This document shows positions 61,201 to 63,301 of a stretch of DNA of 64,000 nt, piece by piece. The first letter of the stretch is position 1, and each line of letters starts with the position of its first letter. The DNA comes from Serratia quinivorans (GTDB taxonomy: Bacteria; Pseudomonadota; Gammaproteobacteria; Enterobacterales; Enterobacteriaceae): the NCBI GenBank assembly GCA_900457075.1, contig UGYN01000002.1:682001-746000 (forward strand), written 5' to 3'. The notes beneath the pieces were generated by a model. The model was given only the letters and a program-made list of their open reading frames with translations, searched no databases and was not told the origin of the DNA. The position numbers and the translations under genes were made by a program.

Positions 61201-62241
<1,041 letters not shown>

Positions 62242-62250
62242 TCAACGCAA

Positions 62251-62278
62251 TAAAAATGCCGCCAGAACCGGCGGCATT
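62251..62278 (-). terminator. Attenuator terminator in the trpS leader
   Basis: Minus-strand stem AATGCCGCC/GGCGGCATT (62278-62270 and 62263-62255) with a 6-base loop, followed by TTTTT. The 5' arm can instead pair with GGCGGCA at 62306-62300, just after the leader-peptide stop, giving a mutually exclusive antiterminator. Confidence 0.88.
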
Positions 62279-62307
62279 GAAAAGAGGTGTGAATACCCGT
62301 GCCGCCT

Positions 62308-62361
62308 TTAGAAGAGGCGCCACCAGGACTGATTGAGTGTGGATTGCATCGGTATATTCAT
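62308..62361 (-). CDS. Trp-codon leader peptide of the trpS attenuator
   Basis: The 17-codon frame MNIPMQSTLNQSWWRLF has tandem Trp codons (TGG TGG, 62325-62320) placed four and five codons before the stop. Directly after them CGCCT (62319-62315) can pair with AGGCG (62307-62303), which overlaps the antiterminator strand. A ribosome stalled at the Trp codons would mask the first arm and free GGCGGCA for antitermination; one at the stop would block it. A TTGACA/TACCTT promoter (62396-62368) would start transcription almost at the ATG, so the peptide may be leaderless, or a promoter further upstream is used. Confidence 0.8.
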   Translation of the reverse strand: MNIPMQSTLNQSWWRLF

Positions 62362-62392
62362 GCTTTTAAGGTATCCCCCAGTATGGGCGTTG

Positions 62393-63301
62393 TCAATCAC
62401 CGCAGGTTGCCAAATTCAGCGCCTGTTCAGCGGCAATACGACAAAAAGCGTCAGTCAGCGGTGAAGCCGTGCGCCACGCCAGCGCCAGCGTATAGGCTAC
62501 CGGGCTGCCTGTGCCGCTCAGTTCACGGAACACCACGCCGGGGGATTGCAGTCTTGCAAACAGGGCCGGCATCAACGCGATCCCCACACCGCCCGCCACC
62601 AGCCCGCCGATAGTCTGCATCTGCCGTGCCTCCTGCACGATACGCGGACTGAATCCCGCCACCGCACAGGCCTGCAGGATCGCCGTGTGCATACCGGGGC
62701 CGTAATGCGCCGGAAACAGCACCCAGGGTTGATCGGCCAGGCTGCTCAACGTCACTTGCTGCTGCGTCGCCAGCGGGTGGTTTTCCGGCAATGCCAACAC
62801 CATGCGATCGAACAGGAAAGGCAAGATCTGCAAGCCCTCTTGCGGCGTCACCGGCAGCACCACCATGCCCATGTCGGCGCGGTCATCGCGCAGTGCGATC
62901 AATTGCTCGGCGGTCGTCGCCTCCTGCAAATGAAACTCCGCCTGCGGATGCGCCTGACGAAACTGCCGCAGGATGCCCGGCAATAGAGCGTTTACCGTGC
63001 TGTCGACGAAGGTCAGGCGCAGCGATTCGGTCAAACCGCGTGCCGCACGGCGGGTATTGCCGAGGGTGCGTTCAAACTGCGCCAACGTTCGCCGCGCCTC
63101 AATCAGAAACACTTGCCCTGCTTCGGTGATCCTGGTGACGCGGTTGCCGCGCTCCAGCAACAGCACGCCCAGCTCCTGCTCAATCTTTCGGATAGCGGCA
63201 GTCAGCGGGGGTTGTGCCATATGCAAGCGCTCGGCGGCGCGGTGAAAGCTCATTTCTTCCGCGACGGCAATAAATTGCCGCAGTTGGCGTAGTTCAATCA
63301 C
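62393..63301 (-). CDS. LysR family transcriptional regulator
   Basis: A 302-residue LTTR. The HTH is LRQLRQFIAVAEEMSFHRAA then PPLTAAIRKIEQELGVLLLE. The effector domain contains LRLTFVDSTVNALLPGILRQ and MQTIGGLVAGGVGIALMPAL. The N-terminal sequence resembles the BenM/CatM-like group that handles aromatic or aliphatic acids. It is divergent from the SDR gene at 63429 and should regulate it. Its end is 31 bases before the trpS leader peptide on the same strand. Confidence 0.93.
   Translation of the reverse strand: MIELRQLRQFIAVAEEMSFHRAAERLHMAQPPLTAAIRKIEQELGVLLLERGNRVTRITEAGQVFLIEARRTLAQFERTLGNTRRAARGLTESLRLTFVDSTVNALLPGILRQFRQAHPQAEFHLQEATTAEQLIALRDDRADMGMVVLPVTPQEGLQILPFLFDRMVLALPENHPLATQQQVTLSSLADQPWVLFPAHYGPGMHTAILQACAVAGFSPRIVQEARQMQTIGGLVAGGVGIALMPALFARLQSPGVVFRELSGTGSPVAYTLALAWRTASPLTDAFCRIAAEQALNLATCGD

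Follow-up and report, generated by a model that had tools for sequence, protein, structure and literature searches.

Expression of the auxiliary tryptophanyl-tRNA synthetase (TrpRS) gene trpS2 of Serratia quinivorans appears, with high probability, to be controlled by a ribosome-mediated transcription attenuator located in a short leader just upstream of the gene. This reading is supported by the sequence elements of the leader, their conservation, covariation of the pairings, and the association of the leader with a second TrpRS. The leader very probably keeps the spare enzyme off until charged tRNA-Trp runs short. It is one of a family found in Serratia, Hafnia, Salmonella, Klebsiella, Aeromonas, Vibrio, Photobacterium, Moritella, Shewanella and alteromonads.

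Transcription is predicted to begin at the AUG of the leader ORF. With ample charged tRNA-Trp, the ribosome would clear both Trp codons and reach the stop codon, region 2 would be covered or paired with region 1, the 3:4 hairpin would form, and RNA polymerase would terminate before trpS2. If charged tRNA-Trp became scarce, either through tryptophan starvation or through inhibition of the housekeeping TrpRS, the ribosome would be expected to stall on UGGUGG and mask region 1; regions 2 and 3 would then pair, the terminator would be absent, trpS2 would be transcribed, and the spare enzyme would restore the charging of tRNA-Trp.

Organization of the leader

The window (the whole stretch of DNA that was analysed, 64 kb) carries the following features, all on the minus strand.

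62391..62396 (-), -35 element TTGACA, as read in the sequence; TTG is the commonest triplet at that distance across 114 distinct upstream sequences
62368..62373 (-), -10 element TACCTT, after a 17-bp spacer, ending 6 nt before the leader ATG
62308..62361 (-), leader peptide ORF of 17 codons, MNIPMQSTLNQSWWRLF, read in the sequence, with ATG at 62361-62359 and stop codon TAA at 62310-62308
62320..62325 (-), tandem Trp codons TGGTGG, predicted ribosome stall site; read in the sequence and conserved
62315..62319 (-), region 1, CGCCT, which pairs with AGGCG at 62307-62303
62300..62307 (-), region 2, AGGCGGCA, of which AGGCG pairs with region 1 and GGCGGCA (62306-62300) with region 3
62270..62276 (-), region 3, TGCCGCC, which forms the 5' arm of the terminator and is the partner in the antiterminator pairing
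62255..62278 (-), intrinsic terminator hairpin (3:4), AATGCCGCCGGTTCTGGCGGCATT followed by TTTATTGCGT, from a terminator scan; the U-rich tail extends to 62249
62233..62242 (-), region 5, ATCCGGTGGT, a putative regulatory strand that can pair with region 3 and the apex of the terminator
62216..62220 (-), region 6, the trpS2 Shine-Dalgarno AGGAG, read in the sequence; partly paired in the predicted fold (unpaired probability 0.43)
61201..62208 (-), trpS2, auxiliary tryptophanyl-tRNA synthetase of TrpRS II type, 335 aa, start at 62208, from profile and structure matches

The leader ORF ends 99 nt upstream of trpS2. Its stop codon sits inside the 1:2 hairpin, the antiterminator pairing 2:3 amounts to 7 bp, and in an alignment of Vibrio-type leaders the helix formed by the counterpart of region 2 covaries. 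Region 5 also contributes to the 5' side of a predicted hairpin that covers the Shine-Dalgarno of trpS2. The initial annotation had recognised the two adjacent Trp codons, a 5-bp 1:2 stem across the stop codon, the pairing of GGCGGCA with TGCCGCC, and a terminator with a T run before trpS, and each of these four attenuation elements was confirmed at the positions listed. The element is longer than it was taken to be, running from the predicted promoter at 62396 to the Shine-Dalgarno at 62216, and two of its parts had been missed, namely the promoter next to the leader ATG and the strand able to pair with the Shine-Dalgarno. The gene upstream (62393-63301, minus strand) encodes a LysR-type regulator and has a stop codon that shares bases with the -35 box of the leader.

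Mini-ORFs of the form ATG...TGGTGG...stop occur nine times on the two strands of the window, and only the trpS2 leader has a terminator within 100 nt. In 40 windows generated by a first-order Markov model the mean was 2.65 such mini-ORFs, and 0.05 with a terminator. The Rfam model of the trp operon leader (RF00513, Trp_leader) matches the leader at 26.1 bits, under the gathering score of 41; searched against the whole genome it is one of 11 matches at E<=0.1, a weak result (E 0.011). When the model was applied to 14 loci, one (L003) scored 28.9 bits and the remaining 13 gave no match at E<=1.

Promoter and predicted start of transcription

The promoter of the leader is sigma-70-like, with a -10 element that matches at 3 of 6 positions. 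It would place the transcription start at the A of the leader ATG (62361), i.e., the leader mRNA is predicted to be leaderless. When 114 distinct upstream sequences were aligned at the leader ATG, a TTG near -35 and a TAnnnT-like box near -12 stood out, with little else kept. The best promoter ended 5-9 nt before the ATG in 101 of the 114, against 24% of shuffled sequences and 13 of 55 ORFs of the window, and Shine-Dalgarno-like motifs were found in only 2 of the 114 leader upstreams versus 21 of the 55 window ORFs. The control ORFs were mechanically called (>=200 aa) rather than curated genes, the scoring weights were entered by hand, and the ATG was chosen to give the peptide nearest to 17 aa; the count left out L198, L204 and L205 (without a tandem-WW leader), L211-L214, and exact duplicates. 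Because the promoter ends 5-9 nt before the ATG and there is almost no Shine-Dalgarno, a leaderless start is predicted, a reading that was formed after inspection of the data: the pattern appeared only with the distance to the ATG fixed, and a free search over 110 nt was weak (p<=0.05 in 26 of 98). The leader of the trp operon in this same genome has a GAGAG Shine-Dalgarno and a 5' UTR, whereas the trpS2 leader has no Shine-Dalgarno and is predicted to start without a 5' UTR.

A start downstream of the terminator, which had been named as grounds for rejecting attenuation, is not predicted, as the promoter points to a start at the leader ATG. A simple promoter scan found none between the terminator and trpS2, although the same scan also missed the leader promoter.

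The auxiliary synthetase and its counterpart

The product of trpS2 matches Pfam PF00579 and scores above the cut-off of TIGR00233. Against named relatives it shows 98% identity to the S. quinivorans protein. Its nearest solved relative is named tryptophanyl-tRNA synthetase II (PDB 2a4m, also 1yi8; E 5e-123), and both structures are, we assume, from Deinococcus radiodurans. A second TrpRS is encoded in the same genome (G000:C2:2595444), which bears out the earlier designation of trpS2 as auxiliary. It is 31% identical to the trpS2 product, and its best solved relatives are other ones (5v0i and 8i1w), presumably E. coli enzymes. This second, 31% identical TrpRS is labelled here as housekeeping-type. 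Upstream of its gene there is no ATG-initiated leader with WW near the stop; a GTG-start ORF of 50 codons is found there, with WW near its start.

The HAIT motif of the housekeeping enzyme contains a His; the matching position is Gln in every one of the 130 translated clade records, a count that includes duplicates (128 recognised by pattern, two on visual inspection). At the same position in 18 distant sole TrpRS there were 4 Gln and 13 His, with one unreadable. We take this His to be the equivalent of H43 of the Bacillus stearothermophilus enzyme. For that enzyme, indolmycin resistance has been reported to follow from the substitution H43N (PMC4899734). A role for TrpRS II together with nitric oxide synthase has also been reported (PMC9437257).

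Conservation and association with a second TrpRS

An ATG...TGGTGG...stop ORF ending soon after the Trp codons precedes trpS2 at 102 of 102 loci, representing 81 distinct leaders. These loci comprise the best 80 of 512 named relatives, picked for closeness, and 22 of 30 same-genus genomes; as some genomes appear twice (as named and unnamed records), the distinct leader is the counting unit. A less biased set was provided by an even sample of 394 genomes of the order, searched at a match threshold of E 1e-100, of which 65 carry the gene, 61 at >=60% identity and four at 52-57%. The tandem-Trp leader was found in 58 of the 61 (two of them, L169 and L172, by visual reading), in none of the four more divergent relatives, and in none of 18 class-level relatives at 40-56% identity. 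The tandem Trp codons and the alternative pairings are kept well beyond Serratia, where the initial annotation had proposed to look for them.

Several individual cases deserve mention. Locus L151 has a 44-codon ORF with WW in mid-peptide and was scored as without a leader. In genome G701, which has two TrpRS, a leader was not found in the 231 nt before the contig end, and G679, a genome 79% complete, has no recognisable leader. In G580 (L205) the leader is attenuator-like but has one Trp codon, not two, and a housekeeping-type TrpRS was not found; this leader may be adjusted to an enzyme that has ceased to be auxiliary.

The housekeeping-type TrpRS was searched for in 37 genomes, i.e., 15 of the 61 close ones, all four at 52-57%, and all 18 distant class-level ones. 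It was found beside trpS2 in 13 of the 15 close-clade genomes. The leader is present in 12 of the 13 genomes with a housekeeping-type TrpRS versus none of the 24 without (Fisher 7e-9, uncorrected for kinship; G158, with a second but weak and partial match, was counted among the latter). Part of this association is explained by kinship, because 22 of the 24 genomes that lack a second TrpRS belong to distant lineages. Among the 15 close genomes searched, only two, G679 and G580, are without a housekeeping-type TrpRS, and both agree with the association.

The leader is also present at one Salmonella locus, on two E. coli plasmids and in two Klebsiella records. The plasmid records that carry trpS2 with a WW leader are L215/L219 (pB379_2, E. 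coli B379), L216/L217 (Klebsiella pneumoniae) and L218 (pKTa005_5), the plasmid label of L217 being doubtful at a record length of 5.4 Mb. In L219, the order of genes is IS26 transposase, a tryptophan permease gene (mtr) incomplete at its N-terminal end, and trpS2. A near search of 5426 E. coli genomes found trpS2 in two, both times on plasmids. The records opened were 3 of 93 from plasmids, 1 of 31 from a phage collection, and 2 of 2 from E. coli genomes (one being the same plasmid as among the three). The 0.5-Mb Salmonella contigs with trpS2 in the phage collection (AFYI01000007.1, AGRM01000005.1, CAKLQH020000002.1) look chromosomal, not phage, and two Acinetobacter phage records, each 254 kb long, include a TrpRS with 62% identity to the trpS2 product.

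Alternative pairings and the output of the leader

Covariation was assessed in an alignment of 42 Vibrio-type leaders, as percent paired against shuffled alignments, with kinship inflating the counts. The 1:2 pairing is hardly above shuffles (inner part 96% paired, shuffled mean 94%; outer part 100% in both). The proximal helix of 2:3 is 100% paired (shuffled mean 96%, best 98%), with two-sided changes in 2 of 5 pairs, and the distal helix 88% (82%). For 3:4 the inner stem is 85% paired (shuffled mean 83%, best shuffle 85%) and the outer 68% (60%). The mutually exclusive pairings 1:2, 2:3 and 3:4 are present, and covariation is clear for 2:3, and for the pairing of region 3 with region 5 described below, but not for the inner stem of 3:4.

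A U-tract terminator was found in 15 of 15 distinct Serratia leaders, in 19 of 21 distinct Aeromonas leaders, and in L016 and L050; it is absent from 41 of the 42 Vibrio-type leaders and from L048. The Serratia element looks like a standard terminator-based attenuator. Since 41 of 42 Vibrio-type leaders have no canonical intrinsic terminator, termination would not be the output everywhere, and the Vibrio-type leader appears to need another output or another kind of termination. In equilibrium folding with the footprint of a stalled ribosome masked, conversion from 3:4 to 2:3 was absent in most of 17 leaders. Because 3:4 was mostly kept under these circumstances, a switch between 2:3 and 3:4 would have to be kinetic.

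The strongest competitor of plain attenuation is a composite control, which we regard as possible but the weaker proposition. The peptide would sense charged tRNA-Trp as above, and the output would also be, or in the Vibrio-type leaders mainly be, the initiation of trpS2 translation, with strand 5 hiding the Shine-Dalgarno in a 5:6 pairing and freeing it when bound to region 3 and the terminator apex. In its favour, besides the missing terminators, 5:6 is 93% paired over the Shine-Dalgarno (shuffled mean 88%, best 89%; slid versions at most 56%) and 3:5 is 92% paired (shuffled mean 85%, best 87%; slid versions at most 68%), with two-sided changes in 5 of 9 pairs among the 42 rows. Strand 5 is also complementary to the apex in 14 leaders outside the Vibrio-type set, seven without mismatch, the leaders and their segments having been picked by hand. 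The clearest case is L041, where with a stalled ribosome 2:3 forms together with strand 5 on the apex, and the Shine-Dalgarno is unpaired at 0.81, versus 0.31 with the ribosome at the stop codon.

Other observations count against composite control. When only the 5' half of 3:5 is considered, one of the slid versions reaches 99% pairing. With 2:3 rather than 3:4 forced, the Shine-Dalgarno became more open in only 5 of the 42 Vibrio-type leaders (less in none) and in 4 of 46 other leaders (less in three), while with masked footprints, stall against stop, it was more open in 8 and less open in 5 of 81. The mean unpaired values over these 81 leaders were 0.23 free, 0.23 stalled, and 0.21 with the ribosome at the stop. 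The forced-state energies are undecided, and partly unreliable where the alignment misplaces 3:4 (in L037, -13.7 versus -27.4 by conditional folding), and the order of states that would open the Shine-Dalgarno in starvation is left unaccounted for. The automatic helix helper misplaced 3:4 in several non-Serratia leaders (e.g., L179, L196, L172) and did not find the 3:5 helix in 4 of 15. General release of the Shine-Dalgarno by 2:3 had no support from conditional folding, so translational control is not claimed. Strand 5 is nevertheless probably a working part, judging from its pairing record, and its conservation and the terminator-free Vibrio-type leaders hint at translational control. As a tentative proposal, there may be one family of leaderless mRNAs in which sensing of charged tRNA-Trp acts through termination and exposure of the Shine-Dalgarno, with translation initiation as the output in the terminator-free Vibrio, Photobacterium, Moritella, alteromonads and Shewanella.

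In L072, L074, L079 and similar Vibrio loci, a pyrimidine tract CUCUUUUU lies before strand 5, about 6 nt past the 3:4 hairpin, and in L072 a forced fold has this tract paired to the 3' strand of that hairpin. Region 5 plus U was considered as a second terminator and dropped on inspection by eye, as the U-runs were inconsistently placed.

Two further explanations fare much worse than transcription attenuation by a stalled ribosome. It is highly improbable that the leader senses a Trp-bound nascent peptide, by TnaC-like arrest, or some other signal, rather than the level of charged tRNA. Arrest of the TnaC type needs conserved peptide residues, but the leader peptides vary (WWRLF, WWCCS, WWRSL, WWHSLL, WWCSI) and the residues preceding WW are not the same from one genus to the next, whereas the tandem Trp codons and pairings stay constant. 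That the hairpin serves solely to end transcription of the upstream LysR gene, which ends 31 nt before the leader ATG on the same strand, and that the Trp-rich mini-ORF is incidental, is scarcely credible, given that the WW leader stays before trpS2 at loci with differing upstream DNA, that the antiterminator pairing covaries, and that the promoter is conserved just before the leader.

Significance

The gene reaches about one-sixth of the sampled genomes of the order (65/394), as well as plasmid records of Klebsiella and E. coli. If the proposed attenuation is correct, blocking the housekeeping TrpRS by any means would induce a second enzyme whose active site has a different residue, which bears on TrpRS inhibitors as antibacterials and on the tolerance of trpS to insertion in Salmonella. 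There, trpS is reported to tolerate transposon insertions, and trpS2 was suggested by the authors as the reason (PMC3487940). In Salmonella Typhimurium, trpS2 (STM4508) is reported as 2-fold up in biofilm, together with trp genes (PMC2805695). The leader family also allows comparison across species of leaderless initiation and of a possible move from termination to translation control.

Comparison with known systems

The initial annotation had regarded attenuation of a second TrpRS as undescribed in enterobacteria. In Streptomyces it is already described, reportedly in Streptomyces coelicolor, where the auxiliary TrpRS gene likewise stands behind a ribosome-mediated attenuator; the organism belongs to a different phylum. 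The published account (Vecchione and Sello 2010, J Bacteriol 192:3565; cited in PMC4787780) concerns an antibiotic-resistant, auxiliary TrpRS whose gene is controlled by transcriptional attenuation of the ribosome-mediated type. A candidate attenuator has also been reported for trpS2 of S. avermitilis (PMC1262725). For gammaproteobacterial trpS2 there was no such report among the matches listed in the full-text literature searched, a body that leaves most subscription papers outside; older surveys of proteobacterial attenuators may contain one. The excerpts of PMC2659441 and PMC2965389 mention no trpS attenuator.

The trpS leader of S. lividans, trpL2 (MMTRTCTQLWRAA), is likewise a leader peptide before trpS, with a transcript reported as leaderless (PMC8079986), as is predicted for the Serratia leader. 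It is described as having one Trp codon and no uridine-rich sequence after it, whereas the Serratia leader has two tandem Trp codons and a U-tract terminator. With the enterobacterial trp operon attenuator (RF00513) the trpS2 leader shares tandem Trp codons followed by Arg, the 1:2, 2:3 and 3:4 pairings, and a terminator. The trpL attenuator RNA of the alphaproteobacterium Sinorhizobium meliloti is reported to have its 5' end at the ATG of the leader ORF (PMC7298713), the same 5' end as predicted here, and controls trpE(G). The trpS2 leader is a gammaproteobacterial variant of the known attenuation of an auxiliary TrpRS, and two of its features, the predicted leaderless start and a strand that can pair with the Shine-Dalgarno, make it worth testing.
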